Shown here piece after piece: positions 444 through 62,917 of a DNA stretch of 64,000 nt. The position numbers were made by a program, and so were the translations under genes. The stretch is from Thysanoteuthis rhombus (taxonomy: Eukaryota; Mollusca; Cephalopoda; Oegopsida; Thysanoteuthidae): the NCBI GenBank assembly GCA_963457665.1, contig OY735207.1, positions 45,597,679 to 45,661,678 of the forward strand, read 5' to 3'. Positions within the stretch are counted from its first letter, which is position 1, and each line of letters begins with the position of its first letter. The notes under the pieces are model-generated. The model was not told the DNA's origin. It saw only the letters and a list, made by a program, of their open reading frames with translations, and made no database searches.

Positions 444-588
444 CTTTTTTCTTTTTTACCGGGTGTTCTGGGAATGGTACGTCCCGTCGTCCGTCCAAAA
501 GGGTCAACAATGGCCCCATTAACTGCCTGATGTCATCCATGTCCATGTAGTAACCAAATTTTACAAGATGTTGCAGAAGTCGTAATAC
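444..588 (-). CDS. IP3R-like exon E20 (last exon in the window)
   Basis: Starts in phase 0 after [28 protein letters not shown] followed by [14 protein letters not shown] matches [20 protein letters not shown] and following residues of IP3R1. Two donors are possible: after 460 (CCG then GTAAAA, phase 0) or after 444 (AAAAAAG then GTATTG, phase 1); the longer form adds a Lys-rich tail. The gene continues to the left of the window. Confidence 0.88.
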
Positions 589-3260
589 CTTTGAGATACA
601 ACGAGAAAAGAAACAATTAGATACGCAGTTTTCTGAAATAATGTAGAAGTTTTCGCTCTTGAAAGCAAAGAAAACCATTCAAGACCGACTATGAATATAT
701 TTTGGGGGCGTAAGAAAGAGCTGCAAATATCGTCGGACATCGACGACAAGACCCCAATAAGCGTCAACTCAACACAACGAAGCTGGTTGACACTGACAGT
801 GGTCTTATCACCGAAGTTCGACGAGTTTTCGTCTTGCTTAATCCTATTTGGGTATAAACATTTTTCGCTGAATCCCCGTTGGATAAAATAAACCCATTGA
901 CAACAAGTCATCCCTTATGTATGTTTAATTGGGAATATGGAACGTTTGCTTATTTTTAAAAAATCTTTTGAATCATATGTTAACTAATTTTTTAATGTAC
1001 TTAATTTCTAAAAAAAAAACATTAAAATTATTGAAACAGTTTTAACGCTAATTTTCACTAATCCTTAGCTCTTTCTCTCCACCTCATGATTTTCGACACA
1101 CAATACCTACTCATCCACCAAATTCTATGCTTCATCAACTCTCTGCTTTATTATAAAAAAGGATGGTTCCCGAAAAAAAGCAGTGATTATGTATCATATA
1201 CTCAGTATTTATAAAACTTTATTATAGTAGTATACATACATATTGGGCCTGCTTCATGGCCGAGATAGTTGCATATCTATAACCAGTACAAATGGTCAGT
1301 GTTCCAGCCCAACAGAATCCAAGATTTCAAATGTTGATTTTCAAGGTGGGTAAGCCCCAATAAGAAGGTTGGCCCCAGCTGCATTAAGCTTAGTAAATAA
1401 TCATGGGCCTGATTTGATGCTAAAATAGTTATGTATGAGGTCTGCCTGGAATGTATCCAACTGTTTTGGATATCCCAAGAACCAATTTCGCGACCTTGAT
1501 GTGACTTGGCATCCCATCAGGAGGGCCCTCAATACAAAGGCAGGAACAGTAACTCTTCTGACAAAGGTCTTCACAAAACCTGCCCACTCTGCAGATCTCT
1601 GGAGTGCCAAACATCACATGTCAGCTCCCCCTATACTTAGATTTGGGCACCTGCAACTTCTTGCTTTTCCGAAAGAGATTTCAGGCCGTGTACGAGATTA
1701 GGGAGAGTGCAATGAGGCAGCTGATGACGATCTTCAATGAGTGCTTAGCAGGCTGTTCTGGGACGCTGGGCTGAGTGAGGACCAAAGGTACTTAGTGTGG
1801 GAGGTCCCCACGTGTACGCTAAAAGGGAATAAGGTGCTATTTCCGCGGCTAGGATATCTTTTTGTTAATACTAATTGGCTGGATACTTTCTGATGGACCT
1901 AGTATTTTCCACTCGTTACACAGATCAACGTTTGAGGCCAGACAAAAGCAAAGACTTCGAATACTGATATTTGAGGCTGGCCAGCCTTTCTGCACTTGGA
2001 AAATTCGTACCAGACAATCTTCTTTCATTCAACATTTAGTCTTGTTTGTGTTAAGCGAAGCTTAGTTAATATGAATAGAATACATACATAATGATTTTTC
2101 CTTTTGGGCGCTTTTTTTTTTGCTTTGTTGAATCATTGACTAGTTATCATAAATATCGTGTTGGAATGAATATATATCAAAAGAAAGTTTGCAATTTTAC
2201 ACATAGCATGTCTCACCTGTTCAATGAGGAGATTGTGTCCCACCAATGAAGCTATCATGATACAGTTCTGACCGAGGAAATTTGCCAACCAATCTCGCAG
2301 CACTGGAAAAATGGTCACGAGATCCTTGACCACCTGAAAAGGTGCAAAATATTTTAAACCATGGAAAAAAATTCCTGAATTTCTTCGGAAATCGCAAGCC
2401 TGAATTAAAAAAAAAATGTCACGAGAGAAAAGGTTCTAATAATTGAATTCCAAATTAAAACTTGAGAATAATCAGATTGTGTAATAATATTAAGAATGAT
2501 ATACCATCATTATAATTTTTTCTAGAACATCTAACTCAAAAATTTAAAGCATCAAAAATCAAATGTGAGGATTAAATAGACCGATTTGAATCAGATGTCA
2601 ATCAATGTATCTAAATTAACACTGTCAATAAGTTTTAAAAATCCAACAGAAGGTTGAAAAGATATGTGCATAAATAAGAATAACAAAAATGCCTATTAGA
2701 AATGAGAAATATATTGTTCAATTGCAATAATTTAATAAAGTTCTCAAGGAGATACAATAGTCTAGAGAGCAAGAGTTGCGTTTTTTTAGAAGAAATGTGT
2801 GAAAATAAAATAAAATAAAATAAAAAATTAAAGGAGAAGAAAGAAACCAATGGTAAAGAGAGACATGTACTTAATTAAAAGAAATAATTTATTTTGAGTC
2901 AAGATAGCAATGACGTAATTTAAAATCATGGTAAGTCCTCTGTGTGGATATTTGTCGGATCTTTTAAAAATAATGCTAGGAAAAGAATCAGAATCGTGTA
3001 CATTGCATCACTATCAATGTTGTCTATAAAACGCATCATTTGAGAGTCATTATATATTTGACGCCAAGCACAGAAATATCAACAAAGAGAGTGGCTCTTT
3101 ATAAGTGTATTAGAAGAGTTTGAATATATGTAAATCAAAGATTTCGGCATAGCCTCTCTCAAGAATGATTGCTGGTGAGGATGAAAATATGATAACGTGC
3201 ATTATAGAGGATCAATGATTAACTTAATTGTTTTATTAGACTAACACCATAGACTGCTGA

Positions 3261-3344
<84 letters not shown>

Positions 3345-6436: not shown

Positions 6437-6469
<33 letters not shown>

Positions 6470-8289: not shown

Positions 8290-8353
<64 letters not shown>

Positions 8354-10223: not shown

Positions 10224-10315
<92 letters not shown>

Positions 10316-15018: not shown

Positions 15019-15111
<93 letters not shown>

Positions 15112-16323: not shown

Positions 16324-16418
<95 letters not shown>

Positions 16419-19845: not shown

Positions 19846-21948
19846 CAACCTGTTGCATATTGAGGGTAAAATAAGAATGAATAAATGAAAGCTGACATTA
19901 ACCTCTTATCTATTTAAGAACCAAACACAGACACCAGACTTTATCTAAACACCCACACCCCACCACATGTCCCTTGTTTTCCACCCACTGTGTCAGAGGC
20001 ACCTCAAAGCCTGACTCTATGAACTGCCTTCCTTTCTCTTCTCTCTAAAACACAGCCACTTTTTTTCATATAAATATGTATATATATCTTACAGTAAAAT
20101 TCCCGATAACTGAGGTTCAAATTAGTAAAACTTGAAACAAATAGCCAAAATTTGTTTCCATTTAAATCTTCTTGGAATACCGTTGTATTTATTGAGTGTC
20201 TGTAGGTTTATAGGTAACAATAAAAGCCTTCAAATACTGACGCACTTTCGTCTAAATATATAGTGAAACAGTTTTCGCTCGATGGACTGTATTTCGTTTT
20301 AAAATGAATGTTCAAGGTTATAAAATCATAATTGAACATATAATACCTGGACAAAGTTCAAAGATTAATCGTTGACAAAAGTTCAAAAAAGAGCGTGATT
20401 CAAAAAAAAAAAAAAAGAGTTGAACAATCCATCATTTCATTTCCTGGTTCAGTTTGTCAATTCACTTCTGTCACAACTTCCATGTTACTCAAAGTAGATT
20501 TGATAAAATAACATACAAAACAAAATATGTTTACAAATAAGACGCTGAGAAAAGAATTGGATAGGAAGAGCAAGGCAAAATCAGTCCGTAGTAAGATGTC
20601 TTTTCTTTTCAATCAAGACATAGCAGAAACTAACTTAGATATTCCAATGATAAATTCCTTGGGTGCATTGGCAGCGCCAAGCCCGGGCTTCAAGCCGCCG
20701 TGTCCCGGGCTCACTAGATCAAGTCTTTACTCATATTACCTATGTATAAAACCTTTGCCTGTCCTCATAGTTTTCTGGTCGAGCTGTGCAAAATGATGGC
20801 GCCGCCACTGCATGGGTGGTCCAACGGAGATGTTTCCAAGAGACTATGCTTTCTATTACTCAAAATATCCTGAACCAAGAACGGAATAGCGTGCACAGAC
20901 AGGAGGGGGCGACGTCCTTTGATGTTTATGATGTTTTTTCTCACGATAAAAACATATCCTATTGTCTGTCTTCCGTCTCGTGTGAATTCAGTGTTATCTA
21001 TACGCCCGTTCATTGGCAACGCGTTCCTTTCGAGAATTCAATTGGTGCCATTCCGGTTTAGATGCTTTTCTCTCTGTAGCCTTCACCGAATTTTATCCGG
21101 TCGTTCTTTGAATGGAAGCGAGGCAAGGTTACCCAGCGCTGTCCAGGGAAAAAACATCTTGGAAGACAAGTTGAAACTCTTATTCAGTCAGATGATTTGA
21201 GATAAACTTTGCGATTTTTATGGGATATCTGAGTTTTTTAAATTAGTTTTTATGAAGGTTGATTTGAAGAAAAAATATTTTTGATGATATTTTAAATCAA
21301 ATTTGTTCGTATCTATGAAAAAATAACCGTGGAAATCGTATCTGTACCAATAGCTAAAACGTTTAATGTTTTGAAAAGTGTCTCCACCATAAGTTGTCGG
21401 TTGATCAAGGACAGTTTTCTCTTTGATAGTTATTTCAGGGATTTCACCAACGTAAAACAGCTAAAAACATTAGTTTGGATAAAATATCATTTCACGGTTA
21501 CACCTTCATTTGAACTTGGTAGTATTGCAAAAAACAAATTTAAATTTTTGTTAAAAACAGTAAAAAAACTTACAGATTACTAGTTCGCAGAACTTTGCCC
21601 GAATAGAATGGGGTAGTAACTCCGACTGCAGACAGAGAAAACAGTCTTCCCAAGAAAGATATCCATATTCCCGCGTGATTACGTGAATTGCAAAGTCGTT
21701 TCGACCCTTTGTATAAAAATGAAATTCGGTTAGTCATTTTAAACATGAAAAACTACGCGGACGATTATAATGAAACTATTCCAAAACTCATTTAGTGATA
21801 AAATTTCACAGGTAATAAAGCTAAATTTTCAACATTATGTCGATGCTCTTTTAAAAACAAACCAACATACGAGAAACTAATAACTTACCTGACTAATTAT
21901 ATCACAGGTAGAATTCGTAGAAAAATACGTCAGAATTATTAGTCACTC

Positions 21949-23760: not shown

Positions 23761-23841
<81 letters not shown>

Positions 23842-23845
23842 CATT

Positions 23846-23889
<44 letters not shown>

Positions 23890-23894
23890 TATAC

Positions 23895-23942
<48 letters not shown>

Positions 23943-33679: not shown

Positions 33680-33710
<31 letters not shown>

Positions 33711-33761
33711 TATGAAGGGAGAGAGAGAGAGGAAGATAAACAAATAGATAGATAGATAGAT

Positions 33762-33798
<37 letters not shown>

Positions 33799-46663: not shown

Positions 46664-46756
<93 letters not shown>

Positions 46757-49700: not shown

Positions 49701-52700
49701 TTTTCTGTAATTCAAAGTAGATTGTTTTTTCACTAATTCTTTTAGGATCAGTTTTGAGAGAACCGTTTTCACACAATTATTGTTTCTTTGAATTTGGGGA
49801 AAGTTTAGTATCAAAGTACTCAATATGAAACAATATGGTTTTCTGTTACACAGTTCAGTACTTAGTTAAAACAATTTTTTTTGTGTTATTAAACTCAGTC
49901 TTCTCTGGTGCCTCATCATATTCCTTATCATTTCTGGGATCCAGCATAATTATAAGACATTCAAAAAGTATTATCTATTTGAATAATAATCAGGTTATTG
50001 TCACCAACAGTAAATTTAATCCCTCTCTGACTACCCACTACAAACTTCATTTTGTGGGTATTTTTGAGCTTCGGGCGTACACTTCAGTACCACAGTTAAA
50101 ACCACGAACCTTTTTCTGTTAAGTGGCTTTTCATATCCAACCCTGATCCTTCTTTTCTTAGTTTTCGTGTTCAATGGGAAACTAATTGATTATTAAAACA
50201 TTAACCAGCATTATAATAGCTGTTTACCTTTCGAGTTGCGGCACCGTCCCACCTGAGACTGCTCATGGACTGTTCATCTGGATCTCTGGACGAATGTCTT
50301 TCATAATCTTCATCTGGAAATTTACAAAGGAAAATGTGCATTCATCAATTCAGTGGTTTGAAGCAACAGCCAGCATTATATTCTCTCATTTCAAGATTTT
50401 GATTCATGAGATAAATCAGATACATTAATCTGCTTACAAGATTCTGATGTCGTCTCCGATATCAAAGGAAGATAGGAAATTAATCCTGAGTGATATGTTC
50501 AGTAATGTAGTTTGACTACACTGGGTCATAGTAATGAGTTCAAAACGACACGTCAGTATTACATGAGGGCAAATGAAGGCTAAATCTAATAACGTGACGT
50601 AAGTAAACGTAAGGATTATGCAGCTTTTACCATGAAAATGTATATATAGGGACCAGCAAGCAATTTGAAGTCCATCAGTCAAATAGAGGAAAATCAAACT
50701 GGGAGAATGTTGAAACATTCAAGACTTTCTTTTGAGGGTGAGACAAAAGACTTCCTTGTTTGACTGAAAAGGATCTTCAGCTCTGGTTCGATCTCTCATT
50801 GTCTCTCCATTATGCATTAGAATGAAAAAAAAAAGAACTCTCAGCCATAACCAAAGCAAATTGACTTTTATTTTCTACCGTCTGCAATGAGATGAAGAAG
50901 ATGATTGGTCAAAGAAAGTAGAAGATATCAAGCTGCTGTCAAACCTATGTTTCATTACATTTGGTTAGTAATTCGATCTTAATATATCTACTTTCAAAAC
51001 AATAGCAATTGGATTTCGTGGAAAGCTATGCAAAAATCAATTTCTAAACAAAAATAAAAAAAATCCAGCTTATTTTGGCCAGATTATGAACAATGTTAGT
51101 GTTTAGTGTGATTATTCGAATAATTTGAGTGGGTTACATTTATTCATATCGCCATCCAAGAGTGAGTTACCTCATTTAAATTTCAAGAGCAATATTGAAA
51201 GCTAAAATACATTATATTTTGTTTTTATATATTTCAAGTGCCACAATTGAGCATAAATATTTGGGAAATACTCAGACACAGTATAAACATTGCTCTATCA
51301 GCTTCGGTGCAAAATAATATTGTAAAACTTCAAGATAACTGATGTATATATTGCATGAAAAACTGACTTTTACATGTACTTAATAAATCACCTTGAAGAA
51401 AGAATTGCTAGTTGAACTTAGTAATTTCTTTTTTTTCTGGATGATTGGAATTGAACTTGAGAAATCTTGGTCTTCAGTTAACTTCTATGTTCACCACATT
51501 GTATCCAATGTACTTACATTGATAAATCATGTGAAAAGGATGATTTCCAGTGTTTTAAAACAGCTTTGTTTCCAAGTTGTGCCTTGCTGTATATTTTACT
51601 AGTGACCTTTGTTTAAGACCAAGACTGATGAGAAGACCAGTTTAAATCTTAACAAAAACAATGGTTTATCATCAGATTGAACTCTGACACAAGAAGGATT
51701 ATATTACCAGAATGTACCAGAAAGGGTGGTTCAAATACTTATGAAACTTCCTTGGCAGGAGTATATAAAGTAGTTGCTGAGCCGGTGTACTGTTTTCAGA
51801 TCACTGATGCTGTCAGGAAAACTCAAGTGTCACATTTAACGTTTCAGTTTGCAAACAGAAATACAAGGAACTACTCAGAAGAGTCCAATAATTTCTGTTC
51901 GGAAAATGTACTCTTTTATATTTTTACCGAGGGTTCATTTTGAGAACATAGGAGGTTGAGAAGTGAATTCCTGAAAATGTTAATGCAAATACGATGAAAT
52001 AATCGAATGAGGTTATTTCAGTATGAACCAGTTTTTTGCCTGCTGCTTACCTCCCTGTGTCACTTTCACCGACCATAAAACAGATTCCGCTTTTACGATC
52101 TTCCTACCTTTTCTCGTTTGAGGATCGAGCGCATATCGTACAATACAGAGTGATGCTATGGCGGGAGGCCTGTTATAATACCTTTGTAAAATATCATTCG
52201 TGAATCAGTTGCTCATTATATTCTGCATTAATGGAACTAATATTGGAACTTGTGATGTAGAAACATGACAAGAAGCCACGAAAACGGCAAATAATACGGG
52301 AAATCAATGAAGCAATCATTTATTTTAGTATCAGCATAAAGAGTGCCCTACCAGCTTCGATTACTTTACATTTATGAATATCAAACATCTCAAGTTAGTC
52401 TGCCAGGAAAAGAAATAAGGATACTTGAGTACTAGGACAAATAGTTAATCTCTAAGGTTTAGCGTTGTTTTGGTGGCGGGAGGCCTGTGATTCAGTTGCT
52501 TAATTGGATAGCTTTCTTGCATTTGTGTGATCGGTGATATGCAAGTATGAATATTCTTTTGTCAACAACAGGTCTATTGTTGTTTAATATAAGCAAAAGA
52601 TTATATTCCTGTGGGCGATTTTGATTCTGGTATAGTTGTATAGTATAATGATTTTGCACTGTGGAAAGAAAATTGAATTTTACAAAAATGGTCGGAAAAC

Positions 52701-55700
52701 ACTTTTGACTCTGAAGGTGATATTATAAAAATTTATGTTTGATAAAGAGTTTACCTTTGAGTGCGTGAAGCCAACAGCCGCTGAGCATGTGTTCAATCCT
52801 CGCATAACTTTCGTACTGAATTTGGTCTCTCTCCTATGAAAGAAAAAAATTGATTATGTTATGTAGTATTGCTAGAGCAAGTTGCGATGCACACCGAATG
52901 TTCAAGAATATGCCTTTAAATGAAAAAACAATCATTTACTATTCAGTCTCACACAACCAGAGGAATTCTCCAGCAGAAGAGAATAATAGCAAATATTCTC
53001 CAGATATAACATGAAAAATGTTCTCATCAGGAAAAGCTTTGGATCTTTGCCTAAACTGCATCTAGATAAAAAGATAATGAATAACAACAGACAATTGAAC
53101 TGAACTACCGTGTTTGTATACAAAATGAACCACTCGGGATTACAATTACCAGAGGTCATTTTCGATATAATGAACAATGAAATCAGGTAACTGGTTTTGA
53201 TTGTTATCATTATCTCGTTTTTCATCACAAACATCGACTCAGCTCCCATTTAGTTATAAATCTGGGTTCACTATTGTCGGTTAATACTGTGGTAAATTAT
53301 ACAATTCTATCATAATACATGCTTACTAAAATTATCTTTTTCTGTTACAAGGCCAAAAGGAGGAAATTAAACTTAAAAAGATCTTGTTGGGACAATTTTC
53401 CCAGCAGGAATAGCCTTGAAAATCAGCACTCAACATCCTGACTATAAGCTTTGGCTCAAACACCGACTACTAATATTATTTTCAAAAAAGTACAAGTAAA
53501 GTCTATTTAAAGATCAGTATTTATTAAGCTAAGATTAGTACGTCATAAGGCCAAATGAGGAAAATAGGGGTATGAAAGATTGTATTGCGCCGGTCTTATA
53601 TGGAGATGATATTGAAAATCAAATATTACTTGAGCATTTCTCTGTGTTTCAAGTTTCCAAAAGATAAACCCACGGACAGCATGTTGGGTCTGCCTCGTAG
53701 TTGAGATAGTTATATATTTTCCATCGGTGTCAGAAGTCGATGTTCAAGTCCTGAATTTTTTATTTTCGAAGCAGTTGGGTAGGCAGGCTGGCTCAAGCCA
53801 CTTTAAAAACAGGCGCTACATAGATTTTCCCAGTAATCTTTTGTTATTGTTGCTCCGAGGTTCAGAGGACGTATCCGATTTACAAAACAAACTTTCATTT
53901 TGTATCTACATTTTTATACACAGTTGACTAAATAGTTTGTTAATGAGAATACAATTACTAGTTGAAACTCACGTCGGGAATTTACCGAACTCGATTCATT
54001 AAACCTTCCCCCGAGTTATATTGAGGAAACACGCTTACAAAAGGGACTGATTATAGTTCTTATATCCTGTGTGCATTGTAGTTTTATCATCTTTCGTGCA
54101 CAGCTCAAGAAAATGTAAGTAAATACGGATGGAAAGATTGCAAATTTTGTGGAACGTAATGTGTTTTCTTGAAACCTCTTCTCAATTTGGAAGAATCTGC
54201 ATAAACTTTACATAAACGTCTGAATCAAGAGATAAATGAGAAGAAACAAGAGAATGAACGAGTTGCGCCACTGTTTATGATATTTTCCAGATACCCGTGT
54301 TTAATGAATATTATCGCCAGAAGGAGCTCTTTTGCGATGGAGGCTCAAAGAGCCAACGCAAAGGAAAAATAAAGAGAAGAGAAGACTTATTTATTAAACC
54401 CTCTGCTAAAAATGAAAATGAACACTTAGAAGAGAAGACTCAGCATAAACATACGTCAGTCAGAGCTTGTGTTTTGCCTCCATTAGTCACTAAAAAAAAG
54501 ATTTAGTGTCAAAACAAACGGTATTTGATAGTCTTTAGTTATTACTCTTTCCCGGTATGAGTGGAGAATGCGGAACACTCTTCATTAGGATAAATTTCCT
54601 TGCACATTCAGCAGCTAATTGAGTATACTCTAAGCTGTGTAATTAGGGTGGAGGTAACCTTTTCGGTAGACTTGCATCCTACAAAAGAAGTTGGTCATAA
54701 AAACAAATTTGTAGGTATAAAGTCCTGGTTTCGACCAGACTTGAGATTTGCAAATGTCGCTGAGTTGATGCATGGAACAGGAACTAGGACATATGAACGG
54801 CCGTCATACTCTAATGGGCGGTGTCCCTTAGGAAACATAACGCTTACCTTAGTTCACCAATCAATTCTTTTTCGCCTTCAATATAAAAACGGGAGAGCAT
54901 CTCTTTATGAAGGCTGCTGCGTTACAAAACGAAACTTATCATTTCGTGGTTGTTACAACTACTTCAAGTACAATTCAGAAAATTGTTTTTCGAAAATATA
55001 GATATTTGTATTCCTTTGTTTGTTTACTATAATATCCCAATCCAGAGCTTGGATCAAAAAGCCTATAGCCTGACACGGTTATTAGCTGAAAATTTTGCTG
55101 TATAATGTTGTTTTGGTGCGATTATTGGATAATCGATGGTATAAGCGCATCGACAAGGAAGGAGATTATCTTGAAAAATAAATATTTGTCGTCTAAAATA
55201 AACGTTTTTTTTCCATCATTATGTTACGGACTTATTGGTGAATAGCAATTTGTGAGTGGTATCAAGTTTCATTTGATAAATGCACATTGGATTCCAGGAA
55301 AAAATACGCTATGAGAAAAATAATAAAATATATAAGTAGATGTTATGAAAGGATTTATTAGAGTTGAAGAAAGCAGGTATAAAGTAAATGAAAAATGAAC
55401 GTGCCCACAGCTGTAGGAAAGGAAATAATATCAAAAGAAAGCTAGCACGACGAAGAAATTGATGAAATGAATAGAAAATTCTTATGGAAAATATCTTTTC
55501 ATTTTGATTTCAATAAAACAGATAAACATCTGGTCATCATTAAAAATCAAGTAGTTGGAAGTGTTGCTCTAACTTGTTGGCATAAATCACTCGGATTCAA
55601 GTGGGTTTCTTTATTAAACAAATATCTATAAAAACAGAAGTTTGAAAAACAAAAAACAAAAACAAAAAACAAAAAACGAACATTCATTTGAGTTTACAGA

Positions 55701-58700
55701 TATGTATTCGGCCTTGGCTACCGTCTTATACGTTTCTCCATAAAAGTTTGTGATTTTTTCTAAGGTAAAAATCAAAACATCGACATTAATTGAATATATG
55801 AATTACATTATTAAGCAGACTTAAATCTGGTGTATCTTACCTTTAATACGGAATGAAGACGGAAAACTGTTCGAGGGTCGGTCTGTTCTGCAGTTAGACA
55901 TACTTCACATTTGTTGTTGATGCACAGATATTGCCTGGTGGTCAAGTGTCGAAGTCGAATTTGTTGTTCCCAGTGAATGATGTCACCTTTAAAAGTCGAA
56001 GGAAAGGATAGGTAGTAGAACAAATTGGAATCCAGTTTTTGAACGAATATACTTGCCAAATCTACACTTTCTGGTTCTTGGCATCAACATTACAAGCAGC
56101 TATCATTCTCTAGAGGATAACCTTCAAAAGAATAAATTTGTTTACGCTAGGACGCCACAACAACACTTTACGAGCCTCTTAGGCCATCCTTGTGTCTCTG
56201 GGTTCCACATGTCAACTTATAATTTTTGGTCACTCCGACCACTATACTGATAAGCTACGCAGTCAGAACCCAGCTCAATTGATGTATTTGGTTGATGAGA
56301 CTTTTGCTCAGGGAACTACTATTTTCATGTGATTCCACAGCTGAACAAACCCTGATTTCTCCAACATATTCTGGGGGTAGACCTGTTTTGTACCTAACGA
56401 ACCAGAGGAAGTAAACGCTTGTTCCTCTTATTTATATCTTTAATTATTAATTCTTTACATTTCTGTCTTAGTCCTTAACATTATACGATATAACCGGGAA
56501 TAGCGACCCCGCATGCCATACTAACATGACTTATTATTGTAATATCATTCAAAGAAAATCGGCTCTAGTCAAGTATGAAAGGTTGATTTACCTGGCAATC
56601 GATTACTTTGATTCTATCAAATAACCAGTCATAAGTAAAGCCTCTGAAAATTAAGCTGTATATCGACAGGCTATTGCAATCTTGAAGCATTTTTATTGTA
56701 TTTACCTTGCTATATTCAGGTGTAGGAGAGTCTGAAACTTTTGCTTATAAAAAAAATATTAGGGAGTTAAAATGGAGTTACGGAGAGAAGAGTTCAATTT
56801 TGTTTATAAATCAGTTTTTATTTTATTGATTTTCAAGAATCAAATTGAAGCATAAAAGTTTCCGATGCTGAATATTGCACTAATCGATAAACGGAAACTC
56901 GAGGGAAATCTATTTCTATTACTAACAGGGTAATTCTTTTCTCTTTATCTGTTCATAACGATTGACACTTATTTTGCTGATGAAAGATCTCTTACCCATC
57001 ATTTGATACAATGGGCTCTTCCAACGGACAGTGTTCAGTGGTTACTCTCCTACAATTAAACTCGTAGAAATTCAAATATGTCTGTGAATCTTCCTCGCAT
57101 AAAATGATTTCAATTAGTAATGTAAGAAGCTTCTTTATTTCTATTTTGGTCATTTTTGCGTAACTGTAAAAAAAAACGCTAAAATCTTTTGTGATTATTG
57201 TTAGAAACGTAGTGTTATCTTTAAGATTTTGAACCAACATCGATTGACTTAGGTAAATTGTGAGAAAAGAGTGTATTTTTTTTAACAACGTACCATCAAG
57301 TATACTGGATTCGGCTTCTATTTCCCAGTAAGTGATTCCGGAAGTGGACGGAGACATTGTTTTGGGGCGATGCTGATCCATTATCCGTACCCTGAAGTGA
57401 ACTTGGGGGAAAAAAAAAGCAGTGAAATATCTATAGAGAGTTTTTATCAACACAATTATTTTGAAAATAGTCAAGAAAAATGAGTTATTTGGAAAAGTAT
57501 ATCTACATGATTAGCATAGAATATGGTTTTCACCAATACTAGAATCTGCAAGTCAAAATAGATACAACTAATTGTTTTAAAAAGAATTGCAAGCTGCATT
57601 GCACAGAAAAATCATGAAACTTATCGCTACACTGCATTCTCCTTTCCTTATTCGAATGTGCCAATAATGATAATAATCAAGATTTAATCTACACACTAAG
57701 AGTCTCTATGATGCTAGAAAACTTCCTTTAATATTATGACCAGCATTTTATGTTTATATCTAGTTTCCATTACTCTCTTTATTGAATGTAACAATCAAAG
57801 GTTCATGAAAAAAGTGGAGATAATATATGAGAAGATACAATAAGATATAACGAACAGTCTCGTTCTATACAGTCTTATTCATTTATGATGCGACCTGGAA
57901 CCATAAATTGAAAAAAAGTTTCAGTCCCAAACTTTTGACTCAACAGAAACTCTGCAAAGAGATCTTTAATCAAACCGCTCCGATTTGACCCACAGGGATC
58001 GAAAGTTAAAGTTGCCTCTGCTCCACATGACTTTAACATCATTATGGCAGACCCAACGTTCATAGCAGTGTTGTTGGAAACATTTTATGCAATATTTTAT
58101 CAAGTGAAAATGATAACTTTTTATCATATTCAAATACACGCGCGTTTCTTATATATTTCTTTTGATATGTACAAGGTTCTGTAGCTTTCAAGTATTAGAT
58201 TGACCTCTCTGGTTAAGTTACAAAGGAATAAACTTGAAAGAGATATATCTTGAACTTTGTAAAATAAAACTCAAGTGATCAATTTACAATTTTAGACGCG
58301 TGCACACATGCATATGTGCTATCAAGTATCTGATAAAATCAAAACGTTAGGTGATATCTATCGCTCCCTTATCTATGACTCAACAACATTTGATTTCAAC
58401 CCTTCGGATTTCAAGTAAGCTTAAGCCAAAGTTAACTCTACGAATCAATTCAATTTATTCTAGGATTAACTCAACAGTTGAGCCCGTTCTTTGTTTGATT
58501 TATATAGTCTCTTGATAATACAAGTTTTCAAAATATAATAGATAAATGCAATAGTTTTGCTTCATATAATTATACTTTATTATTGAATAAGCTAGAATGT
58601 ATGAATCATGCAGCACCCAGAGCGAACTATCAATATTTTGTAAGCATATTTGTCCCTAATTTTCTTAATGATCTTGAAGGCTACCCTGAAATCATGGTTT

Positions 58701-61700
58701 TTGTAGAGTCATTGAATTAGGGGCATATTTATTGGATTCATATGATGATGAAAAGTGAAATACCATCTTCGGTTATGCTCTCTTCGAAGAGGCCTTCGGC
58801 AACCAAGTAAGCTTCCAACTCTTTGTGAAACAATCGAATCACAGATCCTCCCTGAAAAAAATTGGGCCTTAGATAACAATAAGAAGGCAAAATAAATGGA
58901 ATCATGCGCACATTTAATAAGATAATTAAAAAATTAATTCAAACTGGAATCAATTCGCTATTTTATCAATTTTGATAAGTTACTCATGAATAGTTCGCTT
59001 AGGTTTAACAATTTATTACAACTGAGAATTTACAATTGATGCAATGGTTATGTTGAATATTCAACGATTTCGCAGATGTTCAACTATCCTTCATAAATTA
59101 CACTATTTAGCTCATATTTCGATCAATAGAATAAAATATCCTTGACTCTCCTCTTGGCCGAGGCAATTGCCATTTCCCCACTACACCAGTAGTATACATT
59201 TGAGTCCAGTTAAATAAACTACAATCTCAAATGCTAATTTTCAAAGAAGACAGACTCTTTCCACTTGGAAGACAGACGCAACACAAGCTTACTATCCCCT
59301 TTTCTCATTGTCTGTCCATGCGCTGTACAAAGCTAACCTTAACAAATATAAATGAAGTATCATTGGCTAACGTTGCATTTCGATTCAAATATAAAAAAAA
59401 TAGCTTTTCTAATTTCACAATGAACTAATACTAGAATTAAAGTGATCAGAGAAAAACAATTAAACTCAGCTTGACAAGTGTGACAATTTTCAACTTACAG
59501 TGTCCAAAGAATAACCCATAGGGATAGTTTAGCATTCAAAATTATGAAATAAAATGTATGGAACTGCGAAATCACCAAGCATTCAGGACATTCCTGTCTT
59601 TCACAAAGGACTACGATCGATTTATTAGTACATTGGATTAGGTTATATAACTGTAAGATAAATGCGTTCAAAAAGGCTCATTAGTCTCATCATTACTTAC
59701 CCGAACAAATTTGGTTTGGTCAGGGTTTATTCTGTGACTTCCAATCAATGTAAAACTCGATCGTTCCACTCCAAGGTTGAGCTCAGATCTGTTGGAGTGG
59801 AAACACTTCACAATTAACACTGATAATCGGAAGTTGATGATGATGAAACTAATACGTTTAAAATATTTGAATTGACAAAGTTAAAAAAAATGAAAGGAGT
59901 GTGCGTGTATGTACATATACACATACATATACATGCACACATAAACACACATGTATATACACATATATTTACTCATATGTATATATACATACACACATAT
60001 ATATAATGCACTCTTTTTAAAATAAAATTCAGCATCAAAATTGCGCTTCATTTTATATGCAAATGGGAACTTCTCGAGGCATTCATGTTCCAAGTGCTGC
60101 TAAAAGTTTGCCCCTAACGCAAAAAAAGTATTTTTACGATCAGAGAAAATCGAAATTTCCCCTGCCTGATCAATGATGTACGATATTTCCTTACCCTTCT
60201 GTGTTGTAATCGATCTGAAATTTGTTACTCGCATGGAAATAGTGTCCAGGGGACTTGATACTTTCAAAAACTATTTGATCGTGAAGTTGAACCTGGAAAG
60301 ATCAAACGAAGAAGTTTCAGCTCAACATCACATGGAGAGATCACTTGATAGCACAGTATATTAAAGAAAACAACAACAAAAAAAACAAAAACAAAAACAA
60401 GGGCCAGAATCCATTAGAAAACGCAAATGGAAATAGTCAGGTTGCAAGAATGTTAGCCAAGCGATGGACATCACGACTCACAGTGTGGATCCCCAGAGAT
60501 TATATGCGAAACTGTGGGTGGCAAAATTTAAGATGATGAGTCGAAGTTCAGAACGATTTGTCTCCGTGACGCCCATGACAGTGATCTGGCGAATTCTAGG
60601 GAAAGTCTACGTCCGACGACAGGCGCTAAAAGGCTGATGATAATGATGTTGCATAACTGTAGCCATATCATCACGCAATGGAAGAATGTTCTAGACTGAC
60701 TTGAATAGATATCCGTGACAAACAAATTCATCGGAGAAAAATGTAACCACTATCCAAATAGCCTGAACAACATCTGTTTCCTATGAAGGCCAAACACTAC
60801 TGGTTTAAAATTCAGTAATCTAGAAAATCTAGAAGAATTGTGCGAATCACTTGGAGAGATCACTAGACAGCACAAGGTGAACAAATTCTATCAGCACAAG
60901 CCAGAATGAGATACATTGAGGCTTTCACTTACAGCAGACCACTAATCCGAGAAGATCTGATCTGATATTGGTAAACATAAAAAGAAGACCTGTCAGAAAA
61001 ATACCAGAACCTTGAGAGAATTTAGCATTATCTTGCTTGCGAAATTAATAAATTATTTCATATTAAAGGTTGAAAACTTGAAAATTAAAAGAGAAAGCAA
61101 AACCAATTTTACAAATTAGAAGAAATTAGCATCTCTTACAACACACGCCACCCACTGCTGAAGAGCTTTTCTTCTGATACGGTAAATTAATGTCTGCAAA
61201 CCGAAATTGGAGAGTAAAATGTTATGAATTCTTAAAATTAAGAGTATGACCTTATTTGAACCAGTATAGTAAATAAAAGAAATTCATAATAAAAACAGTG
61301 GGAAGATGTTTTCTATATTCTTGGTTATGGAAGATTTCAATGTACACAAATAATCATCATGAAAAGGTTAATCTTTGATATGGAAGGACAGATAAATGCA
61401 TAGACGCTAAAACATGGAGCATCTTTGCTGCAACGGAAGCAAAGAATACTAGATATGAACCACTTTATCCCCGAAGAAAAGGAAATTAGCTGAAAACACC
61501 TCATTCGCTTTTTGGCCTTTATAGAAATAAGATCATTCATTTTTTTTCGCTCGGCTCATGTAGAGGAATTAGTTACTGTTCCAGTCTACATTTATGTGTG
61601 AACTTCTCGTACAGTGTGACATGATTTTCTTTATCACATAACTGACTAGATTATAAAAACCTGGATAATTCATTTACTGTAAGCCAAGTACATACTTAAC

Positions 61701-62917
61701 AGAACTGGATATACAACAACCAGAATTTTAATGATGAAATGGAAGTAAGTAATTAAAATACTATTCTTTTAGGCAACGTCTTCGGAGCTAGAATATTAAC
61801 CTGCTGGCTACAATTACCTCATAATTAGATACAAACGATAAAGCGTTAAGGTTTTTGCTTTTATCAAAAGGGTCACAAAGATCAAACCGGTTTAAACCTG
61901 TTTCTTAACAAGATCCTACAAGGTAGTCATTGTCTTATGAAAATGATGTTTTTGATTAGTTTTGCTTTCTGGCTATGACCCTTCCACTTTAAAAACTGCA
62001 TAAACTATTTGGATACAAAACGTGCATCATATGTTATGATGCTAAGCTGTATAGACTATAAGTGTTTTGTCGGGTTGAAACTTGCTCAACAGACTTAGCC
62101 TAAGTTAACAAGATTTGGAAGGCCTAATATAAGCTTTGATTTTTTTCATTCCAAACGAGCATATTTATAATCTATATATCAATAAAAAGAGTAATGAAGT
62201 ACAGAATTGGTAGGAATGGAAATAAAGAATAGTACATGAAAACATCTACTACAACATTCTGTGAAGCATTTTAGTATGCAACGATGTAGGATCATGATAA
62301 ATAAGAATGATCAGATAATAAGATTTTCTATTCCATCTGATAAAGAAGCAGAAATAAAAGGACGTCTAAAATGAAAATCACCAGAGAGAAGCAGATAATG
62401 ACAGAACTTATCTTAAGTGAAAGTTCAGGTGGTTCCCACAGCTTGACAATTTTGGAGCAGAAAAGAAAGAAGCAGATAAATAATATTTAACTGTAAGTTT
62501 AATGTCCTAGTCCAATACGACCCAAAGTCACAAATGTAGACACACAGAGGGCATCAATCTGATTATAGTAGTAGTAGTGTGTGAGATTAGTTTGCTAATC
62601 ACTAATCCATGGATAATCGTATAAAGGTTACGTGGTACTACCCAAAGGTTTCGGGAACCTAAGGCATGAAATGGCTGTCTAAAAGAAAAAAAGAATCGAT
62701 TGATTAATATGTTCAATTTACCTGAGCTGTTGGATAGCACCTTGTAAGATATGAATAGAACCATTGTCGGTTGTACCTCAGCAATATTCGACAATGGTAC
62801 AAGGAAATAAAACCACAGTTTTCTTGTGTAACTTACCACTTCTCCTTCCGACTTAACTTTGTACCTTGGCAAGATTTTGAATTGTGCATTTTTTGCATTG
62901 AATCCATGGAGTGAAAT
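444..62917 (-). CDS. Divergent IP3 receptor-like Ca2+ release channel, partial gene (20 exons, both ends outside the window)
   Basis: Twenty exons on the minus strand, each bounded by AG/GT with GTRAG-like donors in most cases, join in consistent phase into 708 codons without a stop. In order the product aligns with IP3R1 from about residue 165 to 830: MIR repeats, RIH domain with the alpha half of the IP3-binding core, then helical solenoid. Landmarks are VIRLFH (IP3R1 VVRLFH), [12 protein letters not shown] (MIR), NKDRQKLMR (NRERQKLMR), [33 protein letters not shown] (LPYDLRASFCRLM) and [18 protein letters not shown]3R family members are ER-membrane tetrameric Ca2+ channels gated by IP3; the pore domain would lie left of position 1. 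Similarity to canonical IP3R is only moderate, so this is probably a second, divergent paralogue (IP3R-B-like or an IP3R/RyR-like family member). The start codon, promoter and stop are not in the window. The function as an IP3-gated channel is inferred. Confidence 0.88.
589..2216 (-). other. Intron E19-E20
   Basis: Holds a tRNA-like SINE head near 1250 and a moderately GC-rich repeat-like block to about 1850; the rest is plain AT-rich sequence. Confidence 0.75.
1245..1380 (+). mobile_element. SINE-like repeat, TGGCCGAGATAGTTGC head
   Basis: Head CATGGCCGAGATAGTTGCAT, then GTCAGTGTTCCAGCCC (B-box-like). Relatives start at about 8456, 53690 and 59150. Confidence 0.65.
2217..2333 (-). CDS. IP3R-like exon E19
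   Basis: 39 codons, phase 0 to 0, acceptor TTTTCAG, donor [26 protein letters not shown] lies at the place of the FVEEYLRDVVCQ helix of IP3R1, and NLLIEQ leads into E20 as KLTFEV does in IP3R1. The preceding intron is about 16 kb. Confidence 0.85.
3265..3343. repeat. (TA)n microsatellite
   Basis: Nearly pure AT dinucleotide run. Confidence 0.98.
5975..6060 (-). mobile_element. tRNA-derived SINE head
   Basis: Minus strand: TAATGGTCAAAAAGCTGATC, then GGTAGTGAGTTCGGTTCTT as B box. Confidence 0.5.
6438..6471. repeat. (TC)n then (AC)n microsatellite
   Basis: Short compound dinucleotide run. Confidence 0.95.
6801..7245 (+). repeat. Dispersed repeat family X, copy 1
   Basis: About 440 bases collinear with 42889-43330: ATTAGAAACCGACAAC start, then GGCAGCACCTATGG against GGCCGCACCAATGG, ATCCCCTTTTCCAATT, and GCTGCCAAAAGAC near the end. 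No coding content. Confidence 0.85.
8288..8350. repeat. (GA)n microsatellite
   Basis: Interrupted twice by GGG. Confidence 0.97.
8456..8580 (+). mobile_element. SINE-like repeat, same head family
   Basis: CTTCGTGGCTGAGGTAGTTA head, then ATTGAGTCC; diverged copy of the 1245 element. Confidence 0.55.
8650..8790 (+). repeat. Dispersed repeat family Y, single unit
   Basis: CGAAAATCAAGAAGAAAGTG, then TGCTGTCAGAATTGGGCTCT; lies about 190 bases before a mariner fossil. Confidence 0.65.
8975..9605 (+). pseudogene. Mariner-type transposase fossil
   Basis: Across frameshifts and stops, translation gives the mariner order: a [17 protein letters not shown] block, an [18 protein letters not shown] block, then VVLLHDNAR followed by QTITELG. 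The HDNAR motif carries one of the catalytic Asp residues of the DD34D core. The open frames are broken at least four times, so it is dead. No terminal inverted repeats were identified. Confidence 0.85.
10222..10335. repeat. (ATT)n microsatellite
   Basis: About 30 ATT units, ending in ATC variants; produces poly-Ile and poly-Asn shadow ORFs. Confidence 0.98.
12150..12480 (+). repeat. Hairpin-headed dispersed repeat with internal duplication
   Basis: Begins with the hairpin ACCTCTG ... CAGAGAGGT, followed by TCTGTCAGTC, GTGCACAAGATATCTC and CAATGAATTTCAATGAAATT. A second partial unit at about 12385-12480 repeats CTCAATGAATTTCAATGACA and GTGAAAG. It resembles a very widespread marine-animal repeat (CCTCCGCCAAGGAGG, GTGCACAAGATAACTC), recalled from general knowledge. 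Confidence 0.6.
15021..15110. repeat. (TA)n microsatellite
   Basis: One GTA interruption near the middle. Confidence 0.98.
16326..16420. repeat. (TA)n microsatellite
   Basis: Directly precedes dispersed repeat Z. Confidence 0.98.
16425..16700 (+). repeat. Dispersed repeat family Z, abutting a (TA)n array
   Basis: Shares TGTCTGGTCTTTTC, then TTTACTGTC, CCATCTCCATC and later segments with the reverse complement of 63560-63860. Both copies lie next to a long (TA)n array. Confidence 0.7.
16676..16738. repeat. (TG)n / GTGTGCACAC compound repeat
   Basis: Alternating purine-pyrimidine run with CACACGTGTG palindromes; Z-DNA-prone composition. Confidence 0.85.
18332..18441 (-). CDS. IP3R-like exon E18
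   Basis: 36 codons after two junction bases, phase 1 to 0, acceptor CTCTTCCCAG, donor [14 protein letters not shown] matches LHMHVDRD and [20 protein letters not shown] stands in the variable VTPVKYARLWSEIP region of IP3R1. The junction with E17 makes a cysteine codon. Confidence 0.88.
18640..18845 (+). pseudogene. piggyBac-like transposase scrap
   Basis: [20 protein letters not shown] followed by [13 protein letters not shown] and MIIDSTVKQ resembles the piggyBac block 'DR--KIR-vve-LN-kFk-ly-pg--isIDEs-v'. Much has been lost on both sides, and the catalytic Asp environment is only partly visible. Confidence 0.5.
19150..19245 (+). mobile_element. tRNA-derived SINE head
   Basis: AGTAATGGTTAGCACGTTCG A-box-like, then GGTGTTGAACACG B-box-like segment. 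Confidence 0.5.
19287..19662. mobile_element. Palindromic MITE, copy invaded by a SINE
   Basis: Left arm TTGCATTATATTATAG ... TTAATATATCACTCAATT, right arm AATTGAGTGATATATTA ... ATAATATAACGCAA, as in the copy at 49419. Between the arms lies extra sequence including a tRNA-like SINE (about 19385-19470, minus) and AT-rich flanks that repeat the ATAGAATAAACGAG motif in inverted form. Confidence 0.75.
19385..19470 (-). mobile_element. tRNA-derived SINE head
   Basis: On the minus strand GTTAACTCAATGGTAAGAGC gives a Pol III A box and GGCAGGTTCGATACC a B box at tRNA-like spacing. No CCA stem pairing, so SINE rather than tRNA gene. Confidence 0.75.
19711..19842. repeat. (CA)n then (TA)n compound microsatellite
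   Basis: CA-rich run to 19762 followed by a pure TA run. Confidence 0.97.
21574..21706 (-). CDS. IP3R-like exon E17 (solenoid start, LP-LRA-F motif)
   Basis: 44 codons plus one base, phase 0 to 1, acceptor ATACAAAG, donor GTAAGT. GRNDFAI matches DRQYLAI, and GYLSWEDCF followed by [14 protein letters not shown] matches LPYDLRASFCRLML. A second, pyrimidine-richer CAG acceptor lies inside the exon at 21626-21628 in the same phase (see findings); the upstream acceptor was preferred because the 27 extra codons are conserved in the family. Confidence 0.93.
21951..22016. repeat. (TA)n microsatellite
   Basis: Lies in the 0.9-kb intron between E16 and E17. Confidence 0.98.
22085..22400 (+). repeat. 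Dispersed repeat family Y, two tandem units
   Basis: GGATTGAAAATTAGGAAAAT, then TTACTGACAGAATAGGGCTA, then a second unit with GAAAGTGATTGCCAGTGGCC. Relatives at 8650-8790 and 30840-31230. Confidence 0.7.
22581..22658 (-). CDS. IP3R-like exon E16 (helix before the second solenoid)
   Basis: 26 codons, phase 0 to 0, acceptor TTTTTTTTAG, donor [25 protein letters not shown] matches RDILSYYRYQLNLFARMC of IP3R1. Confidence 0.92.
23185..23530 (+). pseudogene. Mariner-type transposase fossil, C-terminal part
   Basis: Contains a degraded HDNARPHA (QYNARPHAS), then [16 protein letters not shown], the mariner YSPDLAPSDYHLF motif with the last catalytic Asp, then [19 protein letters not shown] and LAQRWHK. 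The 3' tail (ATGAATAAAACATTTTGTTG) resembles that of the copy at 8975-9605, so the two are probably the same family. Confidence 0.85.
23761..23941. repeat. (TA)n microsatellite, longest in the window
   Basis: About 180 bases with ACATTTAT and ACAT/GTAT interruptions at intervals. Confidence 0.98.
24474..24543. repeat. (TA)n microsatellite
   Basis: Ends about 160 bases downstream (in transcription) of exon E15's donor. Confidence 0.98.
24704..24814 (-). CDS. IP3R-like exon E15 (small beta insert after RIH)
   Basis: 37 codons, phase 0 to 0, acceptor ATTTCAG, donor [18 protein letters not shown] matches DILIETKLVLSR and [16 protein letters not shown] takes the place of EEVWLFWRDSNKEIRS. It follows the 15.7-kb intron but needs no missing exon for a continuous alignment. 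Confidence 0.85.
25365..25500 (+). mobile_element. SINE with CAGACTAAGCTAAGC tail
   Basis: AGCGATCAACGGTCTAGTC, then a GTGGGTTCAATCCCTATTG B box, then the tail CTGTGTCAGACTAAGCT shared with 36690-36990 and 37385-37490. Confidence 0.65.
26396..26640 (+). mobile_element. LINE reverse-transcriptase fragment
   Basis: [20 protein letters not shown] corresponds to the RT motif SGVPQGSVLGPLLFIIYINDL of jockey/CR1-like non-LTR elements. The preceding bases ([20 protein letters not shown]-like) fit the upstream helix; the downstream ADD box is lost. Confidence 0.6.
28570..28690 (+). mobile_element. tRNA-derived SINE
   Basis: TCGTAGCTCAAGCGGTAGAG is a clean A-box region; GTTAGTTTCAGTCTCA is a decayed B box; a T-rich body follows. 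Confidence 0.65.
29715..29790 (+). mobile_element. tRNA-derived SINE head
   Basis: CCAATGGTTAAAGTGGTGAT followed by a GGTTTCGATTTCAAG B-box-like segment. Confidence 0.55.
30840..31230 (+). repeat. Dispersed repeat family Y, tandem units
   Basis: GGAAATTATGAAGAAAGTGG, then CAGGAATTGAAGCAATCG and TTACTGATAGAATAGGGCTG; at least two units. Confidence 0.65.
33390..33820. repeat. 430-base polypurine tract with nested microsatellites
   Basis: The plus strand is almost only A and G: GGAA, GAAA and GA runs, a short TA run (33690-33713), a GATA run (about 33744-33763) and a (GA)n block. Confidence 0.95.
33945..34103 (+). pseudogene. BED/hAT-type zinc-finger-like fossil
   Basis: [20 protein letters not shown], then a C-x4-C pair and a final H-x6-H (HDRLATKH) resembles the BED finger at the start of hAT transposases (W/YF ... 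C--C ... H---H). Spacings are off the consensus, so this is tentative. Confidence 0.3.
36690..36995 (+). mobile_element. SINE cluster, CAAACTAAGATAA tail family
   Basis: TCTGCAGTGTAGTGGTTATC A-box-like start and GTGCCAAAACAATAAGCTTA tail; a second unit ends GCCAAACTAAGATAAACTTA at about 36965-36985. Confidence 0.6.
37152..37340. mobile_element. Palindromic MITE, diverged copy
   Basis: AAATTGCTTTATATTTTATA ... TTAATGTATCGC on the left and GTGATACATGAACC ... GATCATCTCAAAT ... ATAATATAACGCG on the right fit the family, with a deletion in the left arm. Confidence 0.7.
37385..37490 (+). mobile_element. SINE, CAAACTAAGATAA tail family
   Basis: CATTCACTGGTGTAGTGATT and the tail GTGTCAAACTAAGATAACTA match the units at 25365 and 36690. 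Confidence 0.55.
37800..38480 (+). pseudogene. Mariner-type transposase fossil with N-terminal HTH
   Basis: [29 protein letters not shown] and GRPKAVYN match the paired helix-turn-helix domain of mariner transposases; [17 protein letters not shown] and later [20 protein letters not shown] follow in order. The central catalytic part is deleted and several stops are present. Confidence 0.85.
40477..40581 (-). CDS. IP3R-like exon E14 (RIH domain end)
   Basis: 35 codons, phase 0 to 0, acceptor TTCAACAG, donor [26 protein letters not shown] matches [20 protein letters not shown]; the 'LLQ-LCVC-VA--NQ' form is also close to the RyR version of this domain. Confidence 0.94.
41131..41182. repeat. (CA)n-rich microsatellite
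   Basis: Interrupted CACACA / CATACA run, just downstream of exon E13 in transcription. Confidence 0.9.
41237..41359 (-). CDS. IP3R-like exon E13 (RIH domain)
   Basis: 41 codons, phase 0 to 0, acceptor ATTTCAG, donor [24 protein letters not shown] matches TITALLHNNRKLLEKHI and [11 protein letters not shown] matches DTFVSLVRKNREP of IP3R1. Confidence 0.95.
42107..42292 (-). CDS. IP3R-like exon E12 (RIH domain core)
   Basis: 62 codons, phase 0 to 0, acceptor TTTTTCAG, donor [21 protein letters not shown] matches ILKQIFKILQAPFTD and [20 protein letters not shown] matches [20 protein letters not shown]. Equivalents of the IP3-binding R568 and K569 are kept; Y567 is a serine. Confidence 0.95.
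42889..43330 (+). repeat. Dispersed repeat family X, copy 2
   Basis: Collinear with 6801-7245 in the same orientation; both begin with ATTAGAAACCGACAAC and share ACCCCCTTTTCCAATT and TATGCTGCCAAAAGAC. Confidence 0.85.
44047..44127 (-). CDS. IP3R-like exon E11 (basic IP3-pocket helix of the alpha-domain)
   Basis: 27 codons, phase 0 to 0, acceptor TTTTCAG, donor [21 protein letters not shown] matches SKPNRERQKLMREQN of IP3R1. Equivalents of R506, K508 and R511, which bind IP3 phosphates in IP3R1, are kept; R504 is a lysine. This is the clearest signature for IP3R ancestry in the gene. Confidence 0.95.
44470..44990 (-). mobile_element. LINE 3' end (reverse transcriptase C-terminal region), decayed
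   Basis: Reading minus: [17 protein letters not shown], then [20 protein letters not shown], then [17 protein letters not shown] and a [12 protein letters not shown] tail. This is the 'VL-YG-E-W', 'Q-ame-mlgi-lrDr', 'kwqW-GHvaRm' order found after the RT domain of many non-LTR retrotransposons. It has at least one stop and lacks the catalytic RT core. Confidence 0.88.
45520..45625 (+). mobile_element. tRNA-derived SINE head
   Basis: GACTCGTCTGTTACGGCATT followed by a clear B box CCGTTCGAATTCTAAGG. Confidence 0.45.
46425..46475 (-). CDS. IP3R-like exon E10 (51-base exon)
   Basis: 17 codons, phase 0 to 0, acceptor CTCTTGCAG, donor GTAAGT. The product [17 protein letters not shown] stands where IP3R has KGTITQNERRSVTKLLE, between two well-matched exons. 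The size, phase and splice sites are good; sequence identity is too low to stand alone. Confidence 0.8.
46667..46757. repeat. (TA)n then (TG)n compound microsatellite
   Basis: Pure TA run ending in GTGTGTGTGTGTG. Confidence 0.98.
47423..47548 (-). CDS. IP3R-like exon E9 (beta-to-alpha domain hinge)
   Basis: 42 codons, phase 0 to 0, acceptor TTTGATAG, donor [26 protein letters not shown] matches [20 protein letters not shown] of IP3R1, then MLFNLIKV begins the first helix of the RIH region. Confidence 0.9.
48165..48340 (-). pseudogene. Mariner-type transposase scrap, C-terminal
   Basis: [20 protein letters not shown] followed by AERYREVI resembles the C-terminal mariner block '-W---ES----F---GI--L--RW--VI'. 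No catalytic motif remains. Confidence 0.5.
49419..49582. mobile_element. Palindromic MITE, best copy
   Basis: The two halves are long imperfect inverted repeats: left TTGCGTTATATTATAT ... CATTTGAGATGATCT ... TTAATGTATCA; right TGATACATTAA ... ATCATCTCAAATAAG ... TAATGCAA. The element is non-coding. Two relatives are at 19287-19662 and 37152-37340. Confidence 0.8.
50228..50313 (-). CDS. IP3R-like exon E8 (acidic/serine-rich linker)
   Basis: Phase 1 to 0, acceptor TTTCCAG, donor GTAAAC. The product is low in hydrophobic residues ([16 protein letters not shown] ...), standing where IP3R has the variable DKEEEKPVML loop. Its place is fixed by phase on both sides and by the flanking homologies rather than by its own sequence. 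Confidence 0.78.
52755..52833 (-). CDS. IP3R-like exon E7 (last MIR repeat)
   Basis: Phase 0 to 1, acceptor TTTCATAG, donor [23 protein letters not shown] matches YVRLRHLCTNTWVHSTN of IP3R1, the final beta-trefoil strands. Confidence 0.9.
52834..55840 (-). other. Intron E6-E7
   Basis: Contains a SINE head near 53690. A 133-codon plus-strand ORF at 54600-55001 resembles nothing I know and has no visible splice or start context; probably chance or repeat-derived. Confidence 0.6.
53685..53860 (+). mobile_element. SINE-like repeat, same head family
   Basis: GCCTCGTAGTTGAGATAGTT head, then GATGTTCAAGTCCTG as B-box-like segment. Confidence 0.55.
55841..55986 (-). CDS. IP3R-like exon E6 (MIR repeat)
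   Basis: Phase 1 to 0, acceptor TTTTAAAG, donor [25 protein letters not shown] is a textbook MIR repeat, related to [20 protein letters not shown] of IP3R and even more to the RLRHVTT form common in RyR and other MIR proteins. The tail [13 protein letters not shown] closes the repeat. Confidence 0.93.
57294..57401 (-). CDS. IP3R-like exon E5 (beta-domain phosphate loop, MIR)
   Basis: Phase 1 to 1. The acceptor is CCCCCAAG behind a long T/C tract (57402-57418); the nearer CAG ten bases inside puts a stop in frame and was rejected. [12 protein letters not shown] lies where IP3R1 has FLRTTGRQSA, and TYWEIEAE matches LWEVEVV. The arginine of R265 can be aligned but the following Thr-Thr-Gly is replaced by Val-Arg-Ile and the loop is about five residues longer. 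Confidence 0.88.
58764..58851 (-). CDS. IP3R-like exon E4 (start of the ligand-binding beta-domain)
   Basis: Phase 0 to 1, acceptor TTTTTTCAG, donor [26 protein letters not shown] matches [20 protein letters not shown] of IP3R1. The arginine corresponding to R241 is kept (VIRLFH); the lysine corresponding to K249 is an alanine here. IP3R1 numbering is from memory. Confidence 0.92.
59148..59300 (+). mobile_element. SINE-like repeat, same head family
   Basis: CTCTTGGCCGAGGCAATTGC head, then TTTGAGTCCAG; followed by AATGCTAATTTTCAAAG, which also follows the 1245 copy (AATGTTGATTTTCAAGG). Confidence 0.6.
59701..59788 (-). CDS. IP3R-like exon E3 (MIR linker strand)
   Basis: Phase 2 to 0, acceptor AACAG, donor [24 protein letters not shown] matches NEVNSVNCNTSWKIVLFM of IP3R1, and the loop NPDQTKFVR takes the place of SDNKDDILK. 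The junction codon with E2 restores a glycine. Confidence 0.85.
59905..60005. repeat. ACATATAC-type low-complexity tract
   Basis: Mixed CA/TA run (ACATATACACATACATATAC and similar), about 190 bases from exon E2. Confidence 0.9.
60195..60292 (-). CDS. IP3R-like exon E2 (second MIR repeat)
   Basis: Phase 0 to 2, acceptor CTTTCCAG, donor [26 protein letters not shown] matches the IP3R MIR segment [20 protein letters not shown]; the pattern 'aliphatic-aromatic-HAS' ends the repeat strand (HASNKFQID here, HASSHQLVD in IP3R). Confidence 0.9.
60400..60625 (+). mobile_element. LINE 3' end, second copy, opposite orientation
   Basis: [20 protein letters not shown], then [12 protein letters not shown], matches the [13 protein letters not shown] ... 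[10 protein letters not shown] segment of the copy at 44470-44990; the following bases keep the DEF--- and GKVYVRR-like tail with stops. Only the last third of the other copy is present. Confidence 0.75.
61140..61193 (-). CDS. Possible 18-codon cassette exon between E1 and E2
   Basis: A 54-base open segment between a TTTGCAG acceptor and a GTAAGA donor, phase 0 to 0, so it can be included or skipped without a frame change. It would add a basic peptide with [11 protein letters not shown]. When E1 is joined directly to E2 the alignment to IP3R is continuous, so this would be an insertion in the beta-trefoil. It may be an alternative exon or a chance ORF with good splice sites; I did not count it in the 708 codons. 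Confidence 0.35.
62837..62917 (-). CDS. IP3R-like exon E1 (end of first MIR repeat)
   Basis: 27 codons, phase 0 to 0. The acceptor is a CAG after a T-rich tract and the donor is GTAAGT. The segment [15 protein letters not shown] matches the IP3R segment FYIQPFYKLRSIGDSV just before the second MIR repeat, where strands of the beta-trefoil pack. The preceding exon was not found between here and 64000, so the 5' part of the gene lies to the right of the window. Confidence 0.8.

Follow-up and report, generated by a model that had tools for sequence, protein, structure and literature searches.

A conserved IP3R-like gene pair in Thysanoteuthis rhombus, probably of the IP3RB type, lacks the GGGxGD selectivity filter

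Most accounts of animal calcium release name two kinds of channel. On contig C10 of the cephalopod Thysanoteuthis rhombus, a stretch of 64,000 nucleotides (C10:45597679-45661678, the window of this study, part of a 2.73 Gb genome) had been predicted to encode a second, divergent IP3-receptor-like protein, which raises the question whether a real gene lies here and to which branch of the IP3R/RyR superfamily it belongs. Our analysis points to a real, conserved calcium-release channel of this superfamily that is neither a canonical IP3R nor a RyR; most probably it is a molluscan IP3RB present as two paralogues, a reading to which we give a probability of roughly three in four.

Nineteen exons of an IP3R-like gene lie on the minus strand of the window, running from 62917 down to 444 and adding up to 2,089 bp, or 696 codons plus one base. 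They form a single frame with 0 stops, and AG/GT borders are present in 19 of 19. The original prediction of 20 exons and 708 codons had the same limits, one frame and consistent phases, all of which we recovered; its count was nearly reproduced, but a 20th exon, for which about 36 bp more would be needed, was not found in our exon search of the window. Spliced alignment of residues 146-900 of a human ITPR1 probe scored 396.5 on the minus strand, compared with 139.3 on the plus strand, 172.2 for the reversed protein and 147.5-157.2 for shuffled proteins (n=4). With a low intron penalty, spliced alignment produced many spurious tiny exons, and that version was discarded.

Unless other evidence is named, the minus-strand exons given here were placed by AG/GT borders and frame, and a label in brackets denotes a counterpart among pieces fetched from a second gene on contig C32, available for 11 of the 19. 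The chain begins in the Ins145/suppressor domain at 62837..62917 (81 bp; L068) and proceeds through 60195..60292 (98 bp; L052) to 59701..59788 (88 bp), which was also found by spliced alignment and has a weak match on C32 (E 0.23). The MIR region starts with GGSVIRLFH at 58764..58851 (88 bp; L047), an exon with a weak donor score of 0.4, and continues at 55841..55986 (146 bp; L045) and 52755..52833 (79 bp; L051). Between these, at 57294..57401 (108 bp; L046, also supported by alignments), lies the IP3-binding beta-trefoil loop, where HVFLRTTGRQ is replaced. Splice sites, phase and codon score define the next two, a probable exon with little similarity at 50228..50313 (86 bp) and an exon at 47423..47548 (126 bp) whose QEDIRDFNF resembles, by eye, AEVRDLDF of ITPR1. 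RIH1 starts at 44047..44127 (81 bp) with the IP3-contact positions K(504), K508 and R511, and extends over 42107..42292 (186 bp; L044), which contains R568 and K569, 41237..41359 (123 bp; L049) and 40477..40581 (105 bp; L048); PDB alignment supports the first two of these exons, and a Pfam RIH match from the genome search overlaps the last. Further downstream are exons at 22581..22658 (78 bp; spliced alignment), 21574..21706 (133 bp; L050) and 444..588 (145 bp; L053), the latter two recognised by tblastn to ITPR1, together with probable exons of weak similarity at 24704..24814 (111 bp; best codon score in its gap), 18332..18441 (110 bp) and 2217..2333 (117 bp). For four of the 19, beginning at 50313, 24814, 18441 and 2333, the main support comes from splice sites, phase and codon score. 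The C32 comparison covered the 14 exons other than these four and 47548; of the 14, exons 44127 and 22658 had no match on C32.

The window holds only the middle N-terminal part of a gene that extends past it both ways. Upstream on the minus strand, three exons join the chain (67756-67641, 65258-65172 and 64169-64092 in window coordinates), and downstream, exons collinear with IP3R follow over about 88 kb to a last exon with a stop near -88343 (C10 ~45509335), encoding RIH_assoc, candidate S1 and S2, S4 to S6 and a zinc finger, CFIC...HVKSEH. Neither S3 nor roughly the first 55 residues turned up among the assembled exons. Five domains of the IP3R/RyR superfamily are present in the order Ins145, MIR, RIH, RIH_assoc and Ion_trans, each above its Pfam cut-off on the assembled segments (75.2, 69.8, 92.5, 59.1 and 45.0 bits, respectively). 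A second RIH domain was not detected by Pfam in these segments, RIH_assoc in the middle segment stayed below the cut-off (14.7 vs 28.5), and no SPRY or RyR repeat domains were found in segments that had been assembled along IP3R. The S6 exon has a second, partial copy at about -86007 to -86078; this copy is decayed, lacks its first half, has no acceptor and was therefore ruled out as an alternative S6 exon.

The original prediction assumed a single second gene, which is contradicted by a collinear paralogue on C32. There, 34 matches keep the order of the window gene between 48319419 and 48627335 (308 kb), and 28 of 28 fetched exon pieces match the gene on C10, 11 of them inside the window. The two genes are 67.9% identical over 1,331 codons in 33 of 33 segments. 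With pN (0.204) far below pS (0.813, saturated) and 354 differences at first, 219 at second and 782 at third codon positions, both copies are under purifying selection. A canonical IP3R, sought elsewhere in the genome as a check on the second-gene claim, was found in pieces on C166 (169,722 bp) and C33 (C33:19593383-19594086), with best identities of 88% and 91% to human ITPR1 and a filter exon closest to ITPR2/3; the pieces probably represent a single gene divided between contigs. Further Ins145 matches are present on C66 and C379. A RyR is located on C39, its S6 exon matching RyR3 best (E 7.3e-12). Canonical IP3R and RyR thus coexist with window-type genes in one genome, which has four family genes: one canonical IP3R, one RyR and two of the window type.

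Compared with known structures, the predicted protein is closer to IP3R than to RyR and branches apart from both. The N-terminal segment matched IP3R1 in the PDB with E 2.2e-41 and the best RyR with 5.5e-20, and the pore segment matched IP3R2 with 1.4e-42 and RyR with 1.1e-31. Identity of the window protein was 37.2% to human ITPR1, 37.9% to the canonical IP3R of the same genome, 29.6% to RyR1 and 69.7% to the C32 copy, whereas human ITPR1 and the same-genome canonical IP3R are 79.8% identical. A five-tip tree of RIH1 and pore, built from partial sequences, grouped the window gene with C32 and human ITPR1 with the same-genome canonical IP3R, and set human RyR1 apart, with 100 on both internal branches. 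On this tree we rejected a product inside canonical IP3R or RyR; the result agrees with the separate branch that had been proposed. With canonical IP3R (ITPR1-3) the protein has in common Ins145, MIR, RIH, RIH_assoc, a six-TM-type pore and a CxxC...HxxxxH zinc finger; it differs in being only ~37% identical in the compared parts, in lacking GGGVGD and in having 5 of 11 IP3-contact residues. RyR belongs to the same superfamily, and one stretch of the gene resembles VLDVLCSLCVC of RyR, but the protein scores lower with RyR, lacks GGGIGD, and SPRY/RyR domains were not seen in the IP3R-guided segments. As to the RyR-like parts of the original prediction, exon 40581-40477 with its flanks, taken alone, did match only RyR among IP3R/RyR chains, if weakly (E 0.18); longer segments scored higher with IP3R.

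The most unusual part of the gene is the pore, which lies outside the window. Passages in PMC4204029, PMC3194816 and PMC7399828 present GGGXGD as a conserved motif of IP3R and RyR. This superfamily filter is absent here: both copies read CTVTV(I/V)RYGLIGD(M/L)FE at the filter site, without the glycine motif, and CTVTVIRYGLIGDMFE lies inside one exon of the window gene and is the same in C32, which rules out a missed microexon as the source of GLIGD. At this site human ITPR1 has CIVTVLSHGLRSGGGVGD and RyR1 GVRAGGGIGD, and ITPR2 has GLRNGGGVGD. The canonical IP3R of the same genome has CIVTSLNQGLRNGGGIGD and keeps GGGIGD; therefore the change is not general in the species. Of the same-genome RyR filter, only the GD end was seen. 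From the pore-helix cysteine to the FF of S6 we counted 42 residues in ITPR1 and RyR1 as well as in the window gene and C32, and the aligners place the gap differently (five residues in MAFFT, two in HMMER), so that a plain five-residue deletion was dropped. The sequences have L-I-G-D directly after the predicted pore helix in place of the GGG motif, and a deletion with later insertion is indistinguishable from a replacement. In both copies S4-S5, S5, S6 and the zinc finger are well conserved, as is the gate stretch (F/I in NIIFGIIVDTF). The short filter of PKD2 is given as LGD in PMC7399828, and L-I-G-D of the window gene recalls that of PKD2-type channels; the likeness amounts to three or four letters only, and the relation to PKD2 is no closer than that of being an ion channel. 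Our searches of an open-licence library turned up no description of this filter change; it may be known from Alzayady et al. 2015.

The pocket for IP3 is half kept. Of the eleven IP3-recognition residues listed in PMC4204029, R265, K508, R511, R568 and K569 are retained (5/11), R504 is replaced by K, and T266, T267, G268, R269 and Y567 are changed; two aligners pair different arginines with R265. For this count we take the mouse residue numbering of the IP3 contacts to hold beyond the PDB alignment. In IP3R structures the loop that is lost here faces the 4-phosphate of IP3, and the residues retained here face its 1- and 5-phosphates. At the calcium site, the three residues of which we take to be E, E and T, the window gene has D, E, T and C32 D, E, N. 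Given the changes in the IP3 pocket, IP3 binding or gating may be weakened or changed. Judged from sequence, the protein would most likely assemble as a tetramer into a cation channel of the endoplasmic reticulum, with gating running through the coupling of the family's N-terminal and RIH solenoid to the pore. Ion permeation would differ from that of canonical IP3R and RyR, and sensitivity to IP3 might be weakened, altered, or replaced by sensitivity to another ligand or to calcium. Tentatively, and with rather less than even confidence, we consider a bolder possibility, namely a third animal calcium-release channel with a pore of its own, in which a short LIGD filter of the PKD2 sort would stand in for the glycine filter and give other conductance and selectivity, and whose pocket, having lost its 4-phosphate side and kept its 1- and 5-phosphate sides, would be retuned to a different inositol phosphate or to no ligand, and which molluscs would have kept, duplicated, beside RyR.

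Among functional alternatives, the foremost is a non-conducting partner that would co-assemble with canonical IP3R and damp it, the loss of the filter then being a loss of conduction. Absence of the GGG motif from both copies and change at 6 of 11 IP3-contact residues would fit such a regulatory subunit, yet S4-S5, S5, S6, zinc finger and gate stretch would be less needed without conduction and are well kept in both copies; we regard this explanation as unlikely, at something like one chance in several. Somewhat less probable still is a duplicate of the canonical molluscan IP3R that arose within the lineage, evolves fast and only seems ancient. The branch is indeed long, and the five-tip tree stems from partial sequences without outside IP3RB anchors; however, the window protein differs from human ITPR1 about as much as from the canonical IP3R found beside it in the genome, two proteins that are much more similar to each other, constraint on both copies is clear, and an ancient IP3RB branch is already described in passages of the leech study (PMC7992859).

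Far more doubtful is a derivative of the RyR lineage that lost SPRY and RyR repeats. Apart from the weak match of exon 40581-40477, it could draw on an S4 stretch that looks RyR-like by eye, but the much higher scores of longer segments with IP3R speak against it, as does the lack of any SPRY/RyR domain in the assembled segments, even if IP3R guided their assembly. Least probable of all is a pseudogene or assembly artefact, which might be suspected from the decayed S6 copy near -86007: the 2,089 bp contain 0 stops, the collinear paralogue on a different contig is intact, and pN is far below pS.

Assignment to IP3RB, which we continue to favour, draws on a comparison of descriptions. According to passages in PMC7992859, IP3RA, IP3RB and RyR are the bilaterian types, IP3RB being absent from vertebrates, fly and worm; the leeches Helobdella and Hirudo have two IP3RB genes, ip3rb1 and ip3rb2, of which ip3rb2 is expressed in touch neurons with unknown function, and a limpet is among the species of the tree. 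The parallel is close in that an invertebrate genome has IP3R-family genes in addition to canonical IP3RA and RyR and that there are two of them, as here. The IP3R-B type in unicellular relatives and invertebrates that the original prediction mentioned agrees with these passages. Its suggestion of an under-described invertebrate branch stands as regards separation from canonical IP3R and RyR in the tree; because a non-vertebrate IP3RB subfamily has already been described in leech (PMC7992859, in the passages cited), the branch itself is probably not new, with IP3RB membership judged by description only. The leech result also suggests a possible sensory role.

Passages in PMC9113742 state that invertebrates have one gene each of the two channel kinds, against which stand the four family genes of this genome. 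If the pore change is functional, the two copies would offer a natural variant for testing the role of the GGGxGD filter. An IP3R-B of Capsaspora owczarzaki, reportedly described by Alzayady et al. 2015 and said at second hand not to bind IP3, is likewise an IP3R-like channel distinct from IP3R-A; in the genome studied here, by contrast, RyR and two such genes coexist. This coexistence of RyR with a duplicated window-type channel does not fit the view that RyR replaced IP3R-B.

The window and the genome also showed features apart from this gene. A purine-rich GA/GAAA tract spans window positions 33492-33819 and overlaps long frames on the minus strand (147-220 aa, at 33.2-33.9 kb); neither of the two longest had a Pfam match. 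At about 44562-44846, the minus strand encodes a peptide that resembles, by eye, the end of a LINE reverse transcriptase; a frame in this region had no Pfam match above cut-off. Long AT dinucleotide arrays occur in introns (23765-23941, 16327-16420, 15022-15109 and others). A large haemocyanin cluster at C32:48037888-48172503 lies ~150 kb below the C32 paralogue, and the haemocyanin beta-sandwich family PF14830, which we take to be molluscan, has 52 matches in the genome. Nine of the beta-sandwich matches, at C25:56607734-56625492, score equally (97.0 bits), share one 464-aa open frame and are spaced ~2.18 kb apart, a recent tandem array of haemocyanin units.
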